Shown: positions 7,450 to 35,521 of the stretch, in pieces
Position numbering within the stretch: position 1 is the stretch's first letter
How the letters are laid out: each line of letters starts with the position of its first letter
Assembly: GCF_002095395.1 (NCBI RefSeq)
Contig: NZ_MJEI01000106.1
Span: forward strand, 124,001 to 188,000
DNA length: 64,000 nt
Direction of reading: 5' to 3'
Source: Williamsia sp. 1135
Lineage (GTDB): Bacteria; Actinomycetota; Actinomycetes; Mycobacteriales; Mycobacteriaceae
The notes under the pieces: model-generated
Database searches by the model: none
Told to the model about the DNA's origin: nothing
The model's input: only the letters and a program-made list of their open reading frames with translations
Translations under genes and position numbers: made by a program

Positions 7450-7469
<20 letters not shown>
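7209..7469 (-). CDS. mbtH: MbtH-like NRPS accessory protein
   Basis: 86 aa from the first of two adjacent ATG codons (7469 and 7466). It shows the family signature: NPFDDERGTFRVLVNHEGQ, HSLWPDFAPVPGGW, and the C-terminal WRDIAPMSLKQ pattern. MbtH proteins bind adenylation domains and are often required for their solubility and activity. The start lies 20 nt inside the 3' end of the NRPS gene and the stop overlaps the ABC ATPase start. This one-to-one placement says it serves the adjacent NRPS. A longer open frame upstream is a shadow of the NRPS gene. Confidence 0.95.
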
Positions 7470-21297
<13,828 letters not shown>

Positions 21298-25814: not shown

Positions 25815-25899
25815 ATCTCACTCCTCGACACCTGGTTGGTAAGCCAACACTAACCTAGCTTCGCGAGGCGTCCGCGGGCCATGTGGCAGCCACAGTGAT

Positions 25900-25940
25900 T
25901 TGGTTTCCACCAGGGAGTTCCCTACACTAGAACGGTTGCC
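25900..25940 (+). promoter_or_regulatory. Promoter of the first half of the spc operon
   Basis: TTGGTT (25900-25905), 17-bp spacer, TACACT (25923-25928). Bases 25916-25940 are identical over 25 bp to 32537-32561 upstream of rpsH, the same distance from a TTGG -35 element. About 90 nt of leader precede rplN. Confidence 0.6.
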
Positions 25941-26029
25941 TGGGCACTTCCGTGTCGCGGGTGGCAAGACCGCGCGCGTCGGGTCGGAAATCCGGCGGGC
26001 ATATTTGCAAACCAGGTCAAGGAGAAAAA

Positions 26030-26398
26030 GTGATCCAGCAGGAGTCACGCCTGCGGGTTGCCGACAACACCGGTGCCAAGGAAATCTTGTGCATCCGCGT
26101 GCTCGGAGGCTCGTCACGGCGCTACGCCGGCATCGGGGACGTCATCGTCGCCACTGTCAAAGACGCCATCCCCGGCGGAAACATCAAGCGGGGAGAGGTC
26201 GTCAAGGCGGTCATCGTGCGCACCACCAAGGAGCGCCGTCGTGCTGATGGTTCGTACATCAAGTTCGACGAGAATGCCGCCGTCATCATCAAGAACGAGA
26301 GCGATCCTCGCGGAACCCGCATCTTCGGCCCGGTCGGCCGCGAGCTGCGCGAGAAGAAGTTCATGAAGATCGTCTCGCTGGCTCCGGAGGTGCTCTGA
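26030..26398 (+). CDS. rplN: 50S ribosomal protein L14
   Basis: 122 aa from GTG 26030 with AAGGAG 5 nt upstream, reading [18 protein letters not shown], the universal L14 start. Full length, ending [10 protein letters not shown]14 binds 23S rRNA next to L19 and bridges to the small subunit. It is the first gene of the spc operon half here; the neighbouring S10 operon genes (rpsQ etc.) are not upstream, since a lipoprotein gene diverges instead. The rplX start follows after one base. Confidence 0.97.
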
Positions 26399-26399
26399 C

Positions 26400-26714
26400 A
26401 TGAAGGTTCACAAGGGTGACACCGTCATCGTCGTCGCAGGCAAGGACAAGGGCGCAAAGGGCAAGGTCATCGAGTCCTACCCAGCGCGTAACCGCATCCT
26501 CGTCGAAGGCGTCAACCGCATCAAGAAGCACACTTCCGCCTCGCAGAATGAACGCGGCGCATCCTCGGGCGGCATCGTCACCCAGGAAGCCGCCATCCAC
26601 GTCTCGAACGTGATGGTTGTTGATTCCGACGGCAATCCGACGCGCATCGGCTACCGCACCGACGACAACGGCAAGCGCGTCCGCATTTCCCGCAAGAACG
26701 GGAAGGACATCTGA
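26400..26714 (+). CDS. rplX: 50S ribosomal protein L24
   Basis: 104 aa. The KOW motif near the N-terminus ([18 protein letters not shown]) and the NRIKKHTS segment identify L24, an early 50S assembly protein. One base separates it from rplN and one from rplE, so it is co-translated in the operon. Confidence 0.97.
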
Positions 26715-26715
26715 C

Positions 26716-27294
26716 ATGAGCACCACTGAGAAGATCCAGCCTCGGCTGAAGCTCCGCTACCGCGCGGAGATCAAGGACGCGCTCAACGAGCAGTTCCAGT
26801 ACGACAACGTCATGCAGATCCCCGGCGTGGTCAAGGTCGTCGTGAACATGGGTGTCGGCGACGCCGCCCGTGATTCCAAGCTGATCAACGGCGCGGTCAA
26901 AGACCTCGAGCTGATCACCGGCCAGAAGCCAGAGGTCCGCAAGGCCCGCAAGTCGATCGCGCAGTTCAAACTGCGTGAGGGCATGCCCATCGGTGCGCGC
27001 GTCACTCTTCGTGGCGATCGCATGTGGGAGTTCCTCGACCGGCTCGTCTCCATCGCGCTGCCTCGTATCAGGGACTTCCGCGGTCTGAGCGATCGCCAGT
27101 TCGACGGCAACGGCAACTACACCTTCGGTCTCAACGAGCAGTCGATGTTCCACGAGATCAACATCGACAACATCGATCGGCCCCGCGGCATGGACATCAC
27201 CGTCGTCACCACCGCGACCAACGATGACGAAGGTCGGGCACTGCTGCGTCAGCTCGGCTTCCCGTTCAAAGACCCCAACGTGAAGGACAACTGA
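26716..27294 (+). CDS. rplE: 50S ribosomal protein L5
   Basis: 192 aa from ATG 26716; an upstream in-frame ATG would overlap rplX and is not used. Shows [14 protein letters not shown], the [15 protein letters not shown] segment and the C-terminal [15 protein letters not shown] of L5. L5 contacts 5S rRNA and the P-site tRNA. One base separates it from the next gene. Confidence 0.97.
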
Positions 27295-27295
27295 C

Positions 27296-27481
27296 ATGGC
27301 AAAGAAGGCTCTGGTCAACAAGGCCAACAAGAAGCCCAAGTTCGCCGTGCGTGGCTACACCCGGTGCAACCGTTGCGGACGCCCGCACTCGGTCTTCCGC
27401 AAGTTCGGCCTGTGCCGTATCTGCTTGCGCGAGATGGCACACGCGGGCGAGCTGCCCGGTGTGCAGAAGAGCAGCTGGTGA
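27296..27481 (+). CDS. rpsN: 30S ribosomal protein S14, zinc-binding short form
   Basis: 61 aa (type Z; also called rpsZ) with the two zinc ligand pairs CNRC and CRIC. The zinc form indicates the ancestral copy that is used when zinc is available. In related genomes rpsH follows directly; here the operon breaks off at this gene, with a long hairpin 20 bp beyond the stop. Confidence 0.96.
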
Positions 27482-27501
27482 TTTTGTAGCCTCACGGCTC
27501 G

Positions 27502-27569
27502 CAAACGCTCCACTTTTACAAAGACGCTCCACCTATTGGTGGAGCGTCTTTGTGTTTCCGGAGCGTTTG
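27502..27569 (+). terminator. Nested long hairpin ending the first spc half
   Basis: Inner stem of 16 perfect bp (27518-27533 with 27538-27553, ACAAAGACGCTCCACC) around a TATT loop. Outer arms CAAACGCTCC (27502-27511) and GGAGCGTTTG (27560-27569) also pair, giving a two-part cruciform separated by 6-nt bulges. It closes rplN-rplX-rplE-rpsN and also faces the convergent DUF4262 gene. Confidence 0.8.
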
Positions 27570-27595
27570 TCGGAATGAGATACCGCGGGCTGTGG

Positions 27596-28198
27596 CTACT
27601 TTCGGCGCCGGTGTGCCTGCCGTCGGTGGGCTCTGTTGGGTCCACGTGCGTGAATGATGTCGTGAGGTCCACCAGGTTGCTGCCGCCCCAGTGGCATCAC
27701 CCCCTTGACCTGTTGGTCATCGGGCAACAGAGCGTAGTCATCCATCCACGGATACCTGCCGTGCTCGTCGGACCAGACGACCTGGAGGGCAGCCGAATTC
27801 GGGAACAGCTCGTTGGTGATCAGCAGATCGCTCTTGTCGACGAGTTCGATCAGTCGGACCGGTGCTTGCAGTGCGCGTAGCGACAACTCGATGCCCTGCG
27901 CGACGATGGCGCTCCACTGGTACCCATGGAGAAGGTCGCCCAGTTCGTCGAGCACCCGCCCACTGGTTCTCGCGTTCAGTCCGTACACCGCCAGTTCGGG
28001 CAGCGAATGCATCACCAGGCCGGTCGTATATGCGAATGAGCAGTCGGGCGGTCGGCAGTCGTCCGAGTCGCATTCGCATTCGTCGCTGACGGCGGTGATG
28101 AGCCACCGTTCTGTCTTGACCCTGCTGATCGCCGAATTGACCAGCGGGTGGGGATGCCAGCGCGGAAGGCTCCTGATCGCCTCGGTGTAGTCCGACAT
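27596..28198 (-). CDS. DUF4262 domain protein
   Basis: 200 aa from ATG 28198, chosen because AAAGGAG lies 6 nt upstream; the longer frame to 28249 lacks a site. It has the DUF4262 pattern: CSFAYTTGL near residue 55, HSLPELAVYGL, and a C-terminal VWSDEHGRYPWM. A Cys/Asp-rich insertion (CECDSDDCRPPDC) before it is unusual and could bind a metal. Function unknown. It is the first of four genes inserted between rpsN and rpsH. Confidence 0.75.
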   Translation of the reverse strand: MSDYTEAIRSLPRWHPHPLVNSAISRVKTERWLITAVSDECECDSDDCRPPDCSFAYTTGLVMHSLPELAVYGLNARTSGRVLDELGDLLHGYQWSAIVAQGIELSLRALQAPVRLIELVDKSDLLITNELFPNSAALQVVWSDEHGRYPWMDDYALLPDDQQVKGVMPLGRQQPGGPHDIIHARGPNRAHRRQAHRRRK

Positions 28199-28251
28199 GT
28201 TCGCTCCTTTGTTCGATGTTGAGACGAGTGGAGCAGTGCCTGCTGACAAGT

Positions 28252-28299
28252 GGCGATCTTTGTCCCCTTAAGGACAACCGGACGGGAATGTTCCCTCCG
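28252..28299 (+). repeat. Left flanking repeat of the DUF559 gene
   Basis: GGCGATCTTTGTCCCC (28252-28267) is inverted, with one indel, at 29230-29245. GGGAATGTTCCCTCCG (28284-28299) is repeated exactly and in the same direction at 29204-29219. The pair brackets the DUF559 reading frame. Confidence 0.65.
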
Positions 28300-28351
28300 T
28301 GACTACGGAAAGGGCCGATTTTCACCACGAGTGAACCGGTACCCGTCTGCC

Positions 28352-29248
28352 ATGCGTCGGATGGTCATGGATGGTGGTGTCTACAGCCGAAACGAGCTGC
28401 GCCGACTCGGGGTCGACGAACCCCACCTGCGCAGGTGCGTGCGGGACGGCTCGTTGACCAGGCTGCGCTCTGGCTGGTATGCGACTGCCACGCCGGATCC
28501 CGATGTGGCGGAGGCGGTTCGGCGCGGGGGAGTTCTCGGGTGTGTCTCGGCCTTGCGCAAGCACGGGCTGTGGGTCCCGCCCGGCTACTACGACCGCCTG
28601 CACGTCCGCGCGAGCAAGCACGGCAAGCAGCTACGGGCCGGATCCTGCCAAGGTCCCGGTCGACCGAGGCCGGCGGACGCGGCGCTCGATTCCGTTCCGG
28701 TTGCGCTGGGTTGCGCGTCCCGGTGCATGTCGGCCGAGGATTGGGTCGTCGTCTGCGATTCGGTCCTGAACACCCTCGGACTGACCGTGTCGAAGTTGCA
28801 GCTGGAGATGGGGACCATCTCAGGGCAAATCAGGAACCTGATGGACAAGTGTGACCAGCGCTCTCAGTCAGGTACGGAGTCGCTGGCCCGTCTCAGGTTG
28901 CGCGCCGCGGGGTTCACCGTGCATGTCCAGCCGTCGATACCAGAGGTCGGATGGGTCGATCTGCGCGTGGGACGACTGCTCATCGAATGCGATAGCAAAG
29001 AACATCACACCAGTTTCGACAACTACCAGAATGACCGACGCCGCGACCGAAATGCGTTGGTCGGCAGGTGGTTGACCATGCGGATCACGTATGACGACGT
29101 GCTGTACGGCTGGAACGAAGTCATGGCTGATGTCCGGGCGATCACCCAGACCGATCGTCACCGGATGCGACAGCGAAACTCGGCCCGGTCAGCGCCGGCC
29201 GAGGGGAATGTTCCCTCCGCCCCACCTGAGGGGGACAAAATCGCCTGA
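28352..29248 (+). CDS. AbiEi-type N-terminus plus DUF559 nuclease-like protein
   Basis: About 298 aa from ATG 28352 (the start is uncertain; GTG 28331 or ATG 28250 are possible and none has a strong ribosome-binding site). The N-terminus is a winged-helix AbiEi-like region (GGVYSRNELRRLGVDEPHLR, LTRLRSGWYATA). The C-terminus is a Vsr/DUF559-type PD-(D/E)xK fold: ESLARLRLRAAGF, VDLRVGRLLIECDSKEHH, then NDRRRDRNALVGRW. Such proteins are common and multicopy in mycolata; their biological role is not known, though restriction or toxin-antitoxin roles are suggested by the folds. The last 15 codons are built from the right flanking repeat. Confidence 0.75.
   Translation: MRRMVMDGGVYSRNELRRLGVDEPHLRRCVRDGSLTRLRSGWYATATPDPDVAEAVRRGGVLGCVSALRKHGLWVPPGYYDRLHVRASKHGKQLRAGSCQGPGRPRPADAALDSVPVALGCASRCMSAEDWVVVCDSVLNTLGLTVSKLQLEMGTISGQIRNLMDKCDQRSQSGTESLARLRLRAAGFTVHVQPSIPEVGWVDLRVGRLLIECDSKEHHTSFDNYQNDRRRDRNALVGRWLTMRITYDDVLYGWNEVMADVRAITQTDRHRMRQRNSARSAPAEGNVPSAPPEGDKIA
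29204..29245 (+). repeat. Right flanking repeat of the DUF559 gene
   Basis: Contains the direct copy GGGAATGTTCCCTCCG (29204-29219) and the inverted copy GGGGGACAAAATCGCC (29230-29245) of the left repeat. It lies inside the 3' end of the reading frame. Confidence 0.65.
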
Positions 29249-29250
29249 AC

Positions 29251-30654
29251 CTACCGCCCGAGTAAACCGCCGAGGCCGCCTTGCACACCGGATTGGCTGC
29301 CGCCGCCGGTACCGCCGATCAATCCGCCCGGTGGCATCTCCGACGGTTGGACGACGACGAAACCCTGTCCGCTGAACGCGAGGGTGAAACGCTCGCCGGT
29401 GCTGCGACCCATGAGCGTCCCGAGATTGAAGGAGTCGTTGCGCTTGACGCTGGTCTGCAGACTCGACGACCACGCGACCGCGGCGTTGGGGTCGGCAAAG
29501 GTCTGCTGATCGACGGTCAGGACCACCGGGTTGCCGTCGGTGGTGATCGCGATGCGACCACGACCGGTGAAGACACAGTTGAACAGTCCGGCGTTGCCCT
29601 GGGCGCCGGCACCTTGGACGCGTTTGACGTCGTAGGTCAGGGTGGAATCGAACGCGAGGACGTTGGCGCCGTTGATGGTCAGGCCGTCCGACCCGTCGAG
29701 GTCGATCAGGTGGACGTCGCTCGCGGCGTCGGCGAGGAACAGGTCGCCGCGGCCGGTCACCTTCATCAGCGGCACACCCTCGCCCGTGAGGGTGTTGCGG
29801 ATGGCGCGGCTGATGCCGCCCGAGCCGAGCGCCTCGAACTTCAGATCGCCCTGATAGGCGACCATCGACCCGGACCGCGCCATCACCTCGCCGTTCATGC
29901 CGACCCGGCACATCTTGCTGCCCTGCTTCTGGATGCCGGTTCCCGACACCTCCGCGTGTGCCGGGTTGAAAAGGTCACTGTTCATGGCGTGAACTCCCTG
30001 CTGCTGGGGCGAAGGTGCGGGCGGTGGCGTCTGCGGGTAGGCGGGTTGCGGCGGCGGCGGTGAGCCCTGCGTGGCCGGTGGTGATCCCTGGCTCGCAGGT
30101 GGCCACGGCATCGGATCGGGTGTTTGCGCAGGCGGCGGGGGATCGTCGTCGACCTGGATCCCGAAGGCCCGGGCCAGACCTGCGAGTCCGTCGTCGTATC
30201 CCTGGCCGACGGCGCGGACCTTCCAGGTGTCGCCGCGCCGGTAGACCTCCATACACACGACACCGGCCTCGGAGGTCAGTTGCGCCGGGGTGAACGACAC
30301 CGTGGGAGCGCCGGAGCCGTCGCGGAGCTCGGCCCGAAGCGTGCCCGCCGTCGCGAAGGCGGTGGGCCCGGTGCCGTCGAGGCTGGCCGTGATCGCGACC
30401 GTCTCGATGTCGCGGGGCAGGCGCGTGGTGTCGATGGTGATCACGTCTGTTCGACCGGCACTGCTGTAACTGACACCGGGACCGGACGCCTGGTTGTAGA
30501 AGATCAGGTCGTCGTCGGAGCGGACCCGGCCCGATGTGGTCAGCAGCACCGCCGACGTGTTGACCGGCGACGCACAGGTGACCGTTACGCTGACCTGCGG
30601 TGATGGTAGGGGAGTGTTCTCTCCCGGAGCGAGTTCTCTCATGACCTGCTCCAT
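29251..30654 (-). CDS. TerD - AIM24 fusion protein
   Basis: 467 aa. Residues about 1-175 form a TerD (tellurium/stress) domain: SDDDLIFYNQ, DVITIDTTRLP, VCMEVYRRGDTWKVRAVGQG. A Pro/Gln-rich linker of about 50 residues follows. Residues about 225-467 form an AIM24 (TIGR00266) beta-prism: SKMCRVGMNGEVMARSGSM, FLADAASDVHLIDL, and a Gly-rich tail. TerD proteins bind calcium and are linked to stress and phage defence islands; AIM24 is of unclear role. The start may be ATG 30654 or ATG 30642, which has the better-placed GGAG. It lies in the segment inserted into the spc operon and follows the membrane hydrolase gene by 16 bp. Confidence 0.85.
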   Translation of the reverse strand: MEQVMRELAPGENTPLPSPQVSVTVTCASPVNTSAVLLTTSGRVRSDDDLIFYNQASGPGVSYSSAGRTDVITIDTTRLPRDIETVAITASLDGTGPTAFATAGTLRAELRDGSGAPTVSFTPAQLTSEAGVVCMEVYRRGDTWKVRAVGQGYDDGLAGLARAFGIQVDDDPPPPAQTPDPMPWPPASQGSPPATQGSPPPPQPAYPQTPPPAPSPQQQGVHAMNSDLFNPAHAEVSGTGIQKQGSKMCRVGMNGEVMARSGSMVAYQGDLKFEALGSGGISRAIRNTLTGEGVPLMKVTGRGDLFLADAASDVHLIDLDGSDGLTINGANVLAFDSTLTYDVKRVQGAGAQGNAGLFNCVFTGRGRIAITTDGNPVVLTVDQQTFADPNAAVAWSSSLQTSVKRNDSFNLGTLMGRSTGERFTLAFSGQGFVVVQPSEMPPGGLIGGTGGGSQSGVQGGLGGLLGR

Positions 30655-30670
30655 TGTTCCAGGCGGTGGG

Positions 30671-32431
30671 TCAGTCTCGATTCAAGAGCGGGACCAGGGC
30701 CTCGGTTTTCGCCTGGTCCCATCCCGGCGGGTCGAGAATCGCCGCCCACGCGTAAGGAATGGCCGACAGGTAATTGTGACCATGGCCGTCGGGGACACCG
30801 GTCGACACCGCCAAGTCTGCCGAGACCTGTAAGAACGACACGAACGGGATCCACCGGGTCGACGACAGGACGTCGTCACCGCGGGTTTCCTTCAGCCAGT
30901 CCGGCTCGTTCAGGATCAACCGGGGACTCCACCAGGCGATCGGGTCGCTGGCGTGCTGCAGGTAGACGATCCGTGACTGCTTCCAGGGCGCATCCGGTCG
31001 GTCGAGGTCTGTTTCATCGGCGATGAACCGGACCTGGCTGCCGTTGTCGTAGATCGGGAGGATCTGGGGCGAACCGGCATCACGATCTGCTGTCGTGTCG
31101 TTCCACAGCGTGTTGTTGAACGTCGGACCGCTGAAGAGTGCACCGTCGGTGCGCGCGGCCAGCGCCGGGATGCTGCCGAAGGCGGACTCGCCGGCAAACG
31201 ACCCGAGACTCTCTCCGAAGACCACCAGTTTTGGTCGCTGTGCCTCCGGGATCGCCTGGACCCGTTCGGAGATCGCCTCGAAGAGCGCCCGGCCGGCTTG
31301 CCGGGCACGCTCTTTGTCGACGAGGAACGACAGCCAGCTCGGGAGGTACGAATACTGCATGCTGACGATGGCGGTGTCGCCGTTGTACATGTATTCGAGC
31401 GAGTCCACGGTCCCCTTGTTCAGCCAGCCGCTACCGGTGCTGGATCCGACCGCGACCACCTGGCGCTCCAGGCCGCCGGTCCGGACCAGTTCTTCGGCCG
31501 CGAGTTCGGCGATCTCGCGGACCGAGTCGGCGGACTCGAGGCCGGCGTACACGCGGATCGGCTCGGTGGCGGGAACACCGTTGAACCGGGTCAAAGCCTC
31601 GACGTCCGGGCCCTTCGAGATGAACACCCGACCCTCGCGGCCGAGCGAATCCCAGGACACGAGCGACCCGGGGCCGCCGGAACGGAGTGAGGATGTCGGT
31701 GGCGATGAGTCGGCTTTCGTTTCGTCGTTTGCGGCGGCGAAGCTGGCGTTGAGGGCCTGCATCGAGTAGTTCACGATCACCCCGTTGAGGATGAACACCG
31801 TCAGGACGACGACGACACCGGCACCGATGACCGCGGAGATCCGTGGCGGCGCGACCTTGTTGAGCTGTCGTACGCACCATCGCACCGCGAACCCGAAGCC
31901 CTGACCCAGAGACATGAGAAGGAAGAACACGATGAGCCCGACCACCGCGATCGTCGGGTACGCACTCCAGCTCAGGTGATCGACCCCCATCAGGTCGCGG
32001 ATCTCGCTCTGCCAGGAAGCGAACCAGACGAGCATCAGCGACGTGCCGACCACCGCAGACGCCGCGAGGACCAGCCAGGCCACCCGGCCCGCGCTGCGCC
32101 AGGGTTCGTCCCGCGAGATCATGAACCGCACGAGCCAGGTGAAGAACACGCCGAGGCAATAGCCCAGCGCAGCGGAGCCGCCACTGACGACACCCTGGAA
32201 CAATGGGCCCCGCGGAAGCAGCGACGGTGTCAGCGACAACAAGAGGAAGACGAGCGCGACCACCATGCCGGCGTATGCGTACCGCTGTAGGTGTCGACGC
32301 CACCACGGCGGCTCTGATGCATGAACCGGTGCGCCCGCCGACGTCGCAGCGGAGTCCGGCGGGTCTACGGGCGCACCGGGCGCGTCAGCACCGGAGGTGT
32401 TCGCCGAGGAGATGTCACTGTGGGCTGCCAC
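30671..32431 (-). CDS. Membrane alpha/beta-hydrolase (Abhydrolase_9 type)
   Basis: 586 aa from GTG 32431 with GGGAG 9 nt upstream. After a disordered N-terminus of about 55 residues come five hydrophobic segments (e.g. YAGMVVALVFLLLSLTPSLL, WLVLAASAVVGTSLMLVWF, ISAVIGAGVVVVLTVFILNG). From about residue 270 there is a periplasmic alpha/beta hydrolase domain with the nucleophile elbow GESLG in VFGESLGSFAGESAF. This two-part layout is the Abhydrolase_9_N / Abhydrolase_9 pair of actinobacteria. Substrate unknown; a lipid or envelope ester is likely. First gene of a two-gene minus-strand unit with the TerD-AIM24 gene, divergent from the second spc promoter. Confidence 0.82.
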   Translation of the reverse strand: MAAHSDISSANTSGADAPGAPVDPPDSAATSAGAPVHASEPPWWRRHLQRYAYAGMVVALVFLLLSLTPSLLPRGPLFQGVVSGGSAALGYCLGVFFTWLVRFMISRDEPWRSAGRVAWLVLAASAVVGTSLMLVWFASWQSEIRDLMGVDHLSWSAYPTIAVVGLIVFFLLMSLGQGFGFAVRWCVRQLNKVAPPRISAVIGAGVVVVLTVFILNGVIVNYSMQALNASFAAANDETKADSSPPTSSLRSGGPGSLVSWDSLGREGRVFISKGPDVEALTRFNGVPATEPIRVYAGLESADSVREIAELAAEELVRTGGLERQVVAVGSSTGSGWLNKGTVDSLEYMYNGDTAIVSMQYSYLPSWLSFLVDKERARQAGRALFEAISERVQAIPEAQRPKLVVFGESLGSFAGESAFGSIPALAARTDGALFSGPTFNNTLWNDTTADRDAGSPQILPIYDNGSQVRFIADETDLDRPDAPWKQSRIVYLQHASDPIAWWSPRLILNEPDWLKETRGDDVLSSTRWIPFVSFLQVSADLAVSTGVPDGHGHNYLSAIPYAWAAILDPPGWDQAKTEALVPLLNRD

Positions 32432-32519
32432 CGGCTGCGCTCCCTTGGTTCGGATCAGCCACCGTATCAGCGCCGGCTCCTCACCGACCCTGCCGGCGAC
32501 CAGTCGATGATCTCAGTAA

Positions 32520-32561
32520 TTTGGCCTGAGCAGCACAGTTCCCTACACTAGAACGGTTGCC
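32520..32561 (+). promoter_or_regulatory. Promoter of the second half of the spc operon
   Basis: TTGGCC (32521-32526), 17-bp spacer, TACACT (32544-32549). The right part (32537-32561) is identical to the rplN promoter core at 25916-25940. The left part (32520-32539) matches the infA promoter at 51902-51921 in 17 of 20 positions (TTTGkCCTGAGCAGC...). It looks like a mosaic of two ribosomal promoters. The gap 32432-32831 (400 bp) holds this promoter and the leader below. Confidence 0.6.
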
Positions 32562-32697: not shown

Positions 32698-32831
32698 GAC
32701 GCAAAACTCACTTCGTAGTAGGCCCACGATGTGACGTGCGAGGCCCGCAGTCCTTCGGCGAGAGTCGAGGGCGGGGAACCGGTGCGCACATGCTGCATGG
32801 GAACCGCCGCGAGAAAGGTTGACGGTCTGTT

Positions 32832-33230
32832 ATGACCATGACTGATCCGATCGCAGACTTCTTGACTCGTCTGCGCAACGCCAACTCGGCGTACCACGAT
32901 GAGGTGACCCTGCCCGCATCGAAGATCAAGGCCAACATCGCCGAGATCCTCAAGCGCGAGGGCTACATCACCGATTACCGCACGGAGGACGCAGAGGTCG
33001 GTAAGAGCCTCGTCGTCTCTCTCAAGTACGGCCCCACCCGCGAACGGAGCATCGCCGGCCTGCGTCGCGTCTCCAAGCCGGGTCTGCGGGTCTACGCAAA
33101 GTCCACCAATCTGCCCAAGGTGCTCGGCGGCCTGGGCGTGGCGATCATCTCCACGTCCTCGGGTCTGCTGACCGATCGCCAAGCCGCCAGCGCGGGCGTG
33201 GGCGGCGAAGTCCTCGCGTACGTCTGGTAA
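32832..33230 (+). CDS. rpsH: 30S ribosomal protein S8
   Basis: 132 aa, starting [17 protein letters not shown], ending in the conserved [10 protein letters not shown]8 binds the central domain of 16S rRNA and in other bacteria represses the spc operon. The ribosome-binding site is weak (GAGAAAGG about 15 nt upstream). First gene of the second spc half, 5.35 kb from rpsN. Confidence 0.97.
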
Positions 33231-33242
33231 GGGGCAAAAACA

Positions 33243-33779
33243 ATGTCGCGTATTGGAAAGAACCCGGTCGCCATCCCGGCCGGAGTAGACGTGAAGATCG
33301 ACGGCCAGACCGTCAACGTCAAGGGCCCCAAAGGGACTCTGTCGGTTGACATCTCGGAACCGATCAATGTCGCTGTTGAGGACAACACCATTGTGGTGAC
33401 CCGTCCCAACGACGAGCGCAAGAATCGTGCGCTGCACGGTTTGAGCCGCACCCTGGTTGCCAACCTGGTCACCGGTGTCACCGAGGGATATGTCCGCAAG
33501 TTGGAGATCTTCGGTGTCGGTTACCGTGTCGCGCTCAAGGGCAGCGACCTAGAGTTCGCGCTCGGGTACAGCCACCCGGTGCCGATCAAGGCGCCTGCGG
33601 GCATCACCTTCGCGGTGGAATCGCCCACCAAGTTCTCGGTTTCGGGAATCGACAAGCAACAAGTCGGACAGATCTCGGCGAACATCCGCCGCCTGCGCCG
33701 TCCGGACCCGTACAAGGGCAAGGGCGTTCGCTTCGAGGGTGAGCAGATCCGTCGCAAGGTCGGAAAGACGGGTAAGTGA
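33243..33779 (+). CDS. rplF: 50S ribosomal protein L6
   Basis: 178 aa with both L6 repeats ([15 protein letters not shown] at the start; [20 protein letters not shown] in the middle) and the C-terminal [17 protein letters not shown] lies upstream. L6 sits near the sarcin-ricin loop and the GTPase centre. Confidence 0.97.
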
Positions 33780-33780
33780 C

Positions 33781-34185
33781 ATGAGTGAAGCAACAGTAAA
33801 GCCAAAGCGTCTGCCCCTGGGCAAGGACGTCTCCACCCGTCGCCGGGTCTCCAACAACCGCCGCCACTTCCGGCTGCGCAAGAAGGTCAGCGGCACTCCT
33901 GAGCGTCCCCGTCTGGCCATCAAGCGGTCGTCACGGCACATCCACGTGCAGTTGATCGACGACCTCGCAGGCAACACCCTCGCCGCCGCCTCGACCATCG
34001 AGGCAGACGTGCGCAGTGCCGGCGGCGACAAGTCGGCACAGAGCAAGAAGGTCGGCGAACTGATCGCCGCCCGCGCCAAGGCTGCCGGCGTGCAGACCGT
34101 GGTGTTCGACCACGGTGGCCACGGCTACCACGGTCGTATCGCCGCTCTGGCGGACGCCGCCCGCGAGGGAGGGCTCGAGTTCTGA
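33781..34185 (+). CDS. rplR: 50S ribosomal protein L18
   Basis: 134 aa from ATG 33781, one base after the rplF stop; a longer frame upstream overlaps rplF and is rejected. Contains [20 protein letters not shown] and the end [17 protein letters not shown]. Binds 5S rRNA with L5. Confidence 0.97.
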
Positions 34186-34222
34186 TGATTGATACGAATA
34201 CTTGCAACGGAAGGACCATCTG

Positions 34223-34891
34223 ATGCCGGGACGTCAGCGGCGTGACGGCGGTACCGGAAGCGGACCCGCCGGAAGCAACAGCAATGACCCCAACGCCAAC
34301 AACGCAGGCGGCGACCGCCGCGGTGGCGGCGGCAATCGCGATCGGCGCGACAACCAGCGCGGCGGTGGCCGGGAAGACAAGAACCAGCTCGAGCGCGTGG
34401 TTGCCATCAACCGCGTCTCGAAGGTGGTCAAGGGTGGACGTCGGTTCTCCTTCACCGCCCTCGTCGTCGTCGGTGACGGCAACGGACTGGTCGGCGTCGG
34501 CTACGGCAAGGCCAAAGAGGTCCCTGCCGCGATCCAGAAGGGTGTCGAGGAGGCTCGCAAGAGCTTCTTCCGCGTCCCGATGATCGGCGCGACCATCACG
34601 CACCCCGTGCAGGGCGAAGCCGCTGCCGGTGTCGTGATGCTGCGTCCGGCCAGCCCCGGTACCGGTGTGATCGCCGGTGGCGCGGTGCGTGCCGTGCTCG
34701 AGTGCGCGGGTGTCCACGACATCCTCGGCAAGAGCCTCGGCAGCGACAACTCGATCAACGTCGTGCACGCGACCGTGGCTGCGCTCAAGCTGCTGCAGCG
34801 TCCCGAAGAGGTGGCCGCACGTCGCGGACTGCCGATCGAGGACGTCGCTCCGGCCGGTATGTTGCGTGCCCGTGCAGGACAGGGAGCATAA
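34223..34891 (+). CDS. rpsE: 30S ribosomal protein S5 with long disordered N-terminus
   Basis: 222 aa from ATG 34223 (GGAAGGA upstream). The first 50 residues are Gly/Asn/Arg-rich ([20 protein letters not shown]), much longer than the short tail of E. coli S5 but common in actinobacteria. The dsRBD-like fold starts at [20 protein letters not shown] and includes [17 protein letters not shown]5 controls decoding accuracy and mRNA entry. Confidence 0.97.
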
Positions 34892-34895
34892 CGAC

Positions 34896-35075
34896 ATGGC
34901 AGAGCTGAAGATCACCCAGGTGAAGAGCACCATCGGGCAGAAGAGCAATCAGCGTGACAGCCTGCGGACCCTCGGTCTCCGAAAGATCCGCCAGACCGTC
35001 ACCCGCGAGGACAACGCCCAGAACCGTGGATTGATCAAAGCGGTTCGGCACCTCGTGACAGTCGAAGAGGTTTAA
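34896..35075 (+). CDS. rpmD: 50S ribosomal protein L30
   Basis: 59 aa, start ATG 34896. Reads [19 protein letters not shown] and [14 protein letters not shown], the L30 signature. It follows rpsE by 4 bp and precedes rplO by 5 bp. Confidence 0.96.
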
Positions 35076-35080
35076 CCGCA

Positions 35081-35521
35081 ATGACAATCAAATTGCATCA
35101 CCTTCGCCCCGCTCCGGGGTCGAAGACAGACAAGACCCGTGTGGGTCGCGGTGAGGGATCCAAGGGTAAGACCGCGGGTCGCGGCACCAAGGGCACAAAG
35201 GCGCGCAAGAATGTGCCTGCTCGTTTCGAGGGTGGGCAGATGCCCATCCACATGCGGCTGCCGAAGCTCAAGGGCTTCACCAACCGCAACCGGATCGAGT
35301 ACCAGGTCGTGAACTTGGCCGACATCAACCGGCTGTTCCCCGACGGGGGCACCATCGGTGTCGAGGACCTCATCGCCAAGGGCGCGGTTCGCAAGAACGA
35401 ACTGGTCAAGGTGCTCGGCGACGGAGAGCTGACGGTGGCCGTGCAGGTCACCGCCAACAAGTTCTCCGCCTCTGCCACCGAGAAGATCGCCGCCGCGGGC
35501 GGATCCACGACCGTCCTGTAA
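35081..35521 (+). CDS. rplO: 50S ribosomal protein L15
   Basis: 146 aa. Basic N-terminus ([18 protein letters not shown]) that threads into 23S rRNA, then [12 protein letters not shown] and the globular C-terminus. Last ribosomal gene of this operon half; secY follows after 186 bp. Confidence 0.97.

Follow-up and report, generated by a model that had tools for sequence, protein, structure and literature searches.

How is a ribosomal protein operon controlled once it has been cut in two, and how does such a break arise? The question is raised by the spc operon of Williamsia sp. 1135, as it lies in a stretch of 64,000 nucleotides (hereafter the window; positions 124,001 to 188,000 of contig NZ_MJEI01000106.1 in assembly GCF_002095395.1, written C48:124001-188000 in our numbering). 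The genes rplN-rplX-rplE-rpsN are followed there by four unrelated genes, after which the operon continues with rpsH-rplF-rplR-rpsE-rpmD-rplO. A preliminary description of this DNA had recorded the two halves, a hairpin after rpsN and the four unrelated genes, all of which are borne out by Pfam matches, repeat arms and folding. We consider it quite probable that the arrangement reflects a divided spc operon with two promoters of one class, a junction tolerant of insertions, and RNA control at rpsH. The features that carry the argument are listed below.

25897..25940, plus strand: predicted rplN promoter of a ribosome-synthesis class, with GATTTGG, TACACT at 25923-25928 and GGTTGCC at 25934-25940, at or just after the expected start.
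26030..27481, plus strand: rplN, rplX, rplE and rpsN, the first spc half (Pfam L14 and S14; rplX and rplE by position and tblastn conservation).
27502..27569, plus strand: terminator-like nested hairpin 3' of rpsN (arms and folding energy).
32518..32561, plus strand: predicted rpsH promoter of the same class, with AATTTGG, TACACT at 32544-32549 and GGTTGCC at 32555-32561.
32711..32818, plus strand: conserved RNA element at the rpsH ribosome-binding site (covariance-model match, 37 bits, E 2e-6).
32832..35521, plus strand: rpsH, rplF, rplR, rpsE, rpmD and rplO, the second spc half (Pfam S8, L6, S5 and L15; rplR and rpmD by position alone).

A recurrent break between rpsN and rpsH

The gap between rpsN and rpsH, which starts at 32832, measures 5350 bp. 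The hairpin at its near end has arms at 27502-27533 and 27538-27569 that are 81% complementary, and folds with -56.7 kcal/mol over 94 nt. A hairpin-rich stretch also follows rpsN in all eight congeners (-51.8 to -55.6 kcal/mol, energies with no shuffled control behind them).

The preliminary description had taken the spc genes to be normally contiguous in actinobacteria; comparison of the gene order between rpsN and rpsH in related genomes shows that this is not always so. A total of 161 genomes of the family were searched with the S8 protein, and the rpsH region was fetched from 69 of them, covering 28 of 30 genera. With the window these make 70 loci, of which 69 were scorable; in the remaining one rpsH lies near a contig end. 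The operon is split between rpsN and rpsH in 46 of the 69, a count that includes six loci in which the fetched upstream DNA, about 16 kb, contains no rpsN. The other 23 are contiguous: rpsH follows rpsN, or rplE if rpsN was not found at that place, after 80-297 bp. Split members occur in 16 of the 28 genera, two of which (g4 and g14) contain both states.

Among named loci, the split is seen directly in Williamsia herbipolensis, three of four Nocardia and two of four Corynebacterium, the upstream partner lying outside the sequence examined in the rest. Mycobacterium, Rhodococcus, Prescottella and Streptomyces are contiguous where rpsN is in view. The main text of PMC10336103 describes M. tuberculosis rplN-rplO as a single ten-gene operon; thus both arrangements, contiguous and divided, are present within the family. 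In a tree built from L14, L24, L5 and S8 (84 rows, 43 split and 41 intact; made by a quick method, with many weak branches), the split state requires at least eight changes, and the window's genus groups with Williamsia herbipolensis and with genera g9 and g15. The rpsN//rpsH junction is a recurrent break, not one recent accident.

A predicted promoter class shared by the two halves

Both halves are preceded by TTGG-N19-TACACT (25900-25903/25923-25928 and 32521-32524/32544-32549). The two sites share the 25-mer AGTTCCCTACACTAGAACGGTTGCC exactly (25916-25940 and 32537-32561), and it occurs nowhere else in the window even with three mismatches. The identical core of the preliminary description is upheld; 100 shuffles of the window gave no match to it, even at three mismatches. 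Its inner 14-mer has exactly two occurrences in the 5.98-Mb assembly. This identity speaks in favor of the preliminary description's own explanation, namely that in this lineage an insertion interrupted the operon, whose second half then captured a copy of the rplN promoter for its expression. Two further findings agree with it: the rpsH promoter is present in 41 of 46 split loci versus 3 of 23 intact ones, and the sequences flanking the two promoters resemble each other slightly more within a genome than across genomes (0.36 versus 0.30 upstream and 0.44 versus 0.39 downstream, values that carry no significance test).

The core was compared in 31 genomes of 16 genera in which both promoter sites are present. 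Identity between the rplN and rpsH cores averages 18.4/25 within genera versus 18.3/25 between them (permutation p 0.17; 18.54 on the test's own averaging versus 18.32, sd 0.23), and the spacers of the two promoters show no excess either (0.35 within genomes versus 0.36 between). Since core identity is the same within and between genera, the two promoters follow one consensus and are not a recent duplicate; on this comparison a recent copy is rejected despite the slight excess in the flanks. A related rpsH promoter is found in all eight congeners, with cores that differ from those of their rplN promoters at 1-11 positions. Identity across the nine genomes of the genus thus spans 14 to 25, the full 25/25 being attained in the window alone; as the congeners score 14-24, the perfect match is the top of the genus spread. 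With the split present in 16 genera and a gap GC of 0.653, equal to that of the window, a capture confined to this lineage is highly improbable. What stands of the preliminary description is two units with matching ribosome-type promoters; the lineage-specific break mended by a captured copy does not. As its refutation that description had named a split found throughout the order with unrelated promoters; half of this applies, since the split is widespread but the promoters are related.

The consensus of the predicted promoters is ATTTGG-N19/20-TAnnnT-N5-GGTTGCC. Both sites of the window show its features: the -10 TAnnnT, GGTTGCC at the class distance, and ATTTGG 25-26 nt upstream of the -10 box. 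ATTTGG-N19/20-TACACTnGAnCGGTTGCC or a near form, with N5 between the -10 box and GGTTGCC, precedes rpsH in 45 of the 70 loci and rplN in 39 of the 70, not every locus including rplN. The shorter pattern TAnnnT-N5-GGTTGCC has three matches in this genome, before rplN, rpsH and rpmB. An rRNA promoter had been expected as the third match, which proved to be that of rpmB.

Over 11 genomes of 10 genera the same pattern gave 52 matches. The 42 that were read precede rpmB (10), rplN (7), 16S rRNA (7), rpsH (6), rpsF (4), yceD (DUF177; 4), smpB (1) and other genes (3), so that ribosome or translation genes lie downstream of 39; two of the ten left unread equal known rplN sites. Gene identities rest on Pfam for one product each of rpmB, rpsF, yceD and smpB, on BLAST for the others, and on reading for yceD. 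The 16S rRNA lies 210-309 nt downstream of its seven matches, in six genomes of the family. The single smpB match (L214, G136) places the motif before a gene of trans-translation as well.

In this genome rpsJ has CATACT-N5-GGTTGCC behind ATTTGG. A position weight matrix trained on other genera and run over 284 kb of the contig ranked rplN and rpsH highest, followed by rpsJ, the only convincing addition. A strict rule of TTGG, TAnnnT and GGTTGC found the two sites of the window and G000:C55:159685-159721 on another contig.

The GGTTGCC start region resembles the CL1 motif of mycobacteria, in what we take to be the letters of the latter. CL1 is described just after the -10 box of the mycobacterial rRNA promoter PCL1 in PMC10218544, in the main text of which GGTTGCC was not found. 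The likeness lies in TAnnnT with GGTTGCC five bases on and in the 16S rRNA downstream of seven matches in the family; the difference is that here the start region stands before ribosomal-protein genes. The ResR/McdR-regulated rplN promoter of M. tuberculosis likewise stands at the start of the spc operon, with a regulator site reported just upstream of the -35 box in the main text of PMC10336103, but the ten genes form one operon there versus two units here. In openly licensed literature (main text, supplements aside), neither the promoter class nor the rpsH RNA element described below was found.

The rpsH promoter coincides with the split state at the tips, as the counts given above support. 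In the 84-row tree set the promoter stands in 34 of the 43 split rows and in 4 of the 41 intact ones, a score in which the -35 filter left Nocardia L022 and L024 promoter-less although the site is there behind a GTTTGG -35 box. The promoter also occurs together with a strong hairpin and no inserted gene in three contiguous loci of the 70 (L139, L140 and L148) and in the named Mycolicibacterium L013, where the hairpins after rpsN fold with -47.5 to -59.9 kcal/mol over 95 nt. In Streptomycetaceae, which have a short rpsN-rpsH spacer, TAnnnT-N5-GGTTGG (once GGTCGG) is present in 26 of 28 loci, a count with no shuffled control. These unsplit, promoter-bearing loci agree with a promoter that is possible in an unbroken operon and renders the junction tolerant of insertions, and the promoter likely preceded the insertions.

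The joint occurrence at the tips would also be expected if a copy of the rplN promoter had reached rpsH once or a few times at an early break, for example by tandem duplication and subsequent loss, with the functional letters alone still alike. Such an ancient capture gains from the absence of both promoter and split in the sampled mycobacteria (L013 has the promoter) and in the loci of g10, g22 and g26, which group with named Rhodococcus and Prescottella. It has to contend, however, with the GGTTG-start site before contiguous rpsH in the Streptomycetaceae, with the four family members that carry promoter and hairpin but no insertion (these could be re-closed splits), and with the rRNA, rpmB and rpsF promoters, which fit the consensus without any break. 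We regard an ancient capture as rather unlikely, though deserving of some weight.

An RNA element over the rpsH ribosome-binding site

In the rpsH leader lies a conserved RNA element. Its outer stem encloses AGGYCC and GGRAACC, which are separated by a loop of 3-132 nt, and the second side of the stem is followed by AGAAAGG ahead of the start codon. RNAalifold on 18 diverse sequences gave 10 pairs, seven of them with two-sided changes. The pairing count is 95.5%, compared with 83.5% after shuffling (none of 500 reached the observed value) and 37-46% after sliding. Early pairing counts are biased because the rows were chosen by motif, and the 18 rows of the covariance model come from these. Among 150 rpsH leaders the motif pattern missed L010, and eight more were dropped for want of AACC; five of the leaders so dropped (L010, L050, L069, L075 and L076) were later matched by the model. 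The covariation of the outer stem, together with the held-out matches, is the fairer evidence for the element.

The covariance model, built without any Streptomyces, was applied to 66 of the 68 named loci outside it (L017 and L059 were left out; L011 is a metagenome-assembled genome labelled Acidobacteriaceae). At E up to 0.1 it matched once each in 61 of the 66, always just upstream of rpsH, and there was no match elsewhere in the 1.27 Mb of held-out loci at E 0.1. The matches are not independent, since 27 of the 66 loci are Streptomycetaceae. In L010, where the start is perhaps misplaced, the match lies about 100 nt ahead of that to rpsH. One of the loci with no match, L018, has a very short spacer. 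Over 284 kb of the contig 32711-32818 is the sole significant match, the next having E 1.3.

Rfam 15 showed no match for the element of the window and none for the rpsJ leader; a short relative gave matches at chance level only. The element thus appears to be uncatalogued, and it is widespread, in Streptomyces, several Micrococcales and Mycobacteriales. Because it is present in contiguous operons too, the break lies upstream of the element and leaves it with rpsH. A second AGGCCC...GGGGAACC lies inside the loop of the element in the window. By eye, the rpsH leaders of the genus and of its g15 and g17 relatives contain two nested AGGCCC...GGGAACC-like units, as if the core had been doubled, and in g6 and g29 the nested second unit has a GGCACC variant.

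The element is a candidate autogenous leader that would bind a ribosomal protein, and S8 is the obvious first candidate, by analogy with E. coli only. In E. coli the uS8 site lies further upstream in the spc operon; the element here is directly at rpsH. Autogenous control of E. coli spc by uS8 acts through a site that mimics the uS8 site of 16S helix 21, according to the main text of PMC10931766, a 2024 review that calls spc regulation unknown in B. subtilis and in species other than E. coli and, presumably, V. cholerae. The two systems are alike in that an RNA structure in spc mRNA is thought to control translation. Mimicry of rRNA was not found with the model, which gave no convincing match in 16S rRNA, helix 21 itself having been compared by eye only. 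A passage on uS2 in the same review indicates that likeness to rRNA is not required of a leader RNA. Eckert and Weinberg 2020 (PMC7247131) present ribosomal leader candidates that are likewise conserved and covarying leaders of ribosomal-protein genes; rpsH, uS8, rplN, uL14, rpsN, rplX and rplE are absent from the main text of that paper, in which ribosomal protein S8 appears in two references only.

The leader of rplN carries a conserved hairpin motif of its own:

25972..26000, plus strand: predicted rplN leader hairpin, a long stem around GGUCGGAAAUC (pattern match).

The motif GGUCGGnAAUC of this hairpin occurs in 63 of 74 Mycobacteriales rplN leaders by pattern matching; one of the 63 (L134) is off register, and several of the 11 misses are near variants. 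In rplN leaders of Streptomyces, Micrococcales and others (L028, L032, L040, L083 and L084) we also observed (C/A)-AGGCUC...GRGAACC-(G/A)GC. A loose pattern for AGGC...GAACC matched before rplN in 42 of 60 leaders outside Mycobacteriales, several of them clearly false, with pairing of 61% at best. This motif may be a cousin of the rpsH element core, in which case one protein may read both spc halves.

A probable insertion-tolerant junction and a proposed coordination of ribosome synthesis

Four genes occupy the gap in the window.

27596..28198, minus strand: DUF4262 gene (Pfam), in the gap of all nine genomes of the genus, diverged.
28250..29248, plus strand: AbiEi_4 / MTES_1575-like open reading frame (both matches under the Pfam cut-off), with a relative in seven of the nine genomes.
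29251..30654, minus strand: TerD + AIM24 gene (Pfam), in all nine genomes and in the same gap of six genera.
30671..32431, minus strand: Abhydrolase_9 gene (Pfam), in the same gap of three of the nine genomes.

The presence of TerD/AIM24 in the gap of six genera, and its place directly upstream of rplN in two g6 genomes, could suggest that the inserted genes take part in ribosome regulation or that the two units are still co-transcribed. The variation of the cargo within the genus, the reversed orientation of three of the four genes and the strong hairpin after rpsN argue against such a functional insertion, to which we give next to no credence. A mobile-element origin finds no support either: no transposase, integrase or similar gene is among the four. 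Among the 20 of 37 repeat families listed, a check for target-site duplication showed one exact long repeat on either side of the gap, namely the promoter core.

The AbiEi-like reading frame lies between matching inverted ends (window 28230-28330 and 29190-29250), with GGCGAT(C)TTTGTCCCC outermost and GGGAATGTTCCC inside. Two close congeners (L102 and L107) have ends of a similar kind; in four more distant congeners the gene is 62-66% identical and lacks them, and two congeners have no such gene. The frame and its ends are possibly a movable defence or toxin-antitoxin cassette.

The ribosomal cluster of this genome is interrupted twice, as the S10 operon ends about 41 kb before rplN. Its rpsJ (S10 by Pfam) starts at C48:103888, and visual reading of the translation puts the end of rpsQ near C48:109.2 kb. 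On the minus strand, at 7450-21297 of the window, the DNA separating the S10 operon from rplN encodes a non-ribosomal peptide synthetase of 4615 aa with AMP-binding, condensation, carrier and thioesterase domains.

In the divided operon that we favor, the first unit, rplN to rpsN, would end at the hairpin terminator, and the second, from rpsH onward, would start at its own promoter, both promoters belonging to a family-wide class that would serve rRNA and several ribosomal-protein operons. The conserved letters would correspond to the -10 box and to GGTTGCC at the transcript start, a region that growth-rate or stringent control may read. The rpsH half would in addition probably be regulated in translation by the RNA structure at its ribosome-binding site, via a ribosomal protein. 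Because rpsH would have its own promoter and RNA leader, genes between rpsN and rpsH would cost little, and owing to this low cost the junction would repeatedly have gained, exchanged or lost cargo.

Several observations weigh against this reading, besides the slight likeness of the promoter flanks within genomes. The reversed control pattern matched 40 times versus 52 in the same 11 genomes (counts alone, neighbours not examined), so that the motif by itself is not rare; it is its placement, rather than its count, that is far from chance. TAnnnT-N5-GGTTGCC was not found at the rRNA loci of this genome (two of four, those with upstream DNA read), and Corynebacterium-like split loci lack the class at rpsH (all four of g3 and the one split locus of g4). 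The RNA model gave no match in four Microbacterium/Pseudoclavibacter loci (L072, L080, L087 and L088) and no convincing one in two rRNA operons (best E 0.29, minus strand). Split and promoter states are phylogenetically clumped: supported branches yield no more than three independent pairs (sign test, median p 0.5), and for this reason the association and the order of events are not proven. The same picture would result from re-closed splits or from an old capture basal to several clades.

The split itself is common in the family; of greater value are the promoter class of rRNA-like type and the RNA element found widely at rpsH. A broader proposal, on which we are evenly balanced, is that actinomycetes coordinate ribosome production through an rRNA-like start (GGTTGCC/GGTTGG) and an undescribed, class-wide rpsH RNA operator. 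With its own promoter and operator the second spc half could then be split off freely, hence the recurrent breaks at rpsN//rpsH. The element in Streptomyces, several Micrococcales and Mycobacteriales is a direct target for binding and reporter tests, and the signature common to rRNA and ribosomal-protein promoters offers, for the coordination of ribosome synthesis in actinomycetes, a basis in sequence that can be put to the test. One junction of a highly conserved bacterial operon is broken again and again, and each side of that junction would have its own control.

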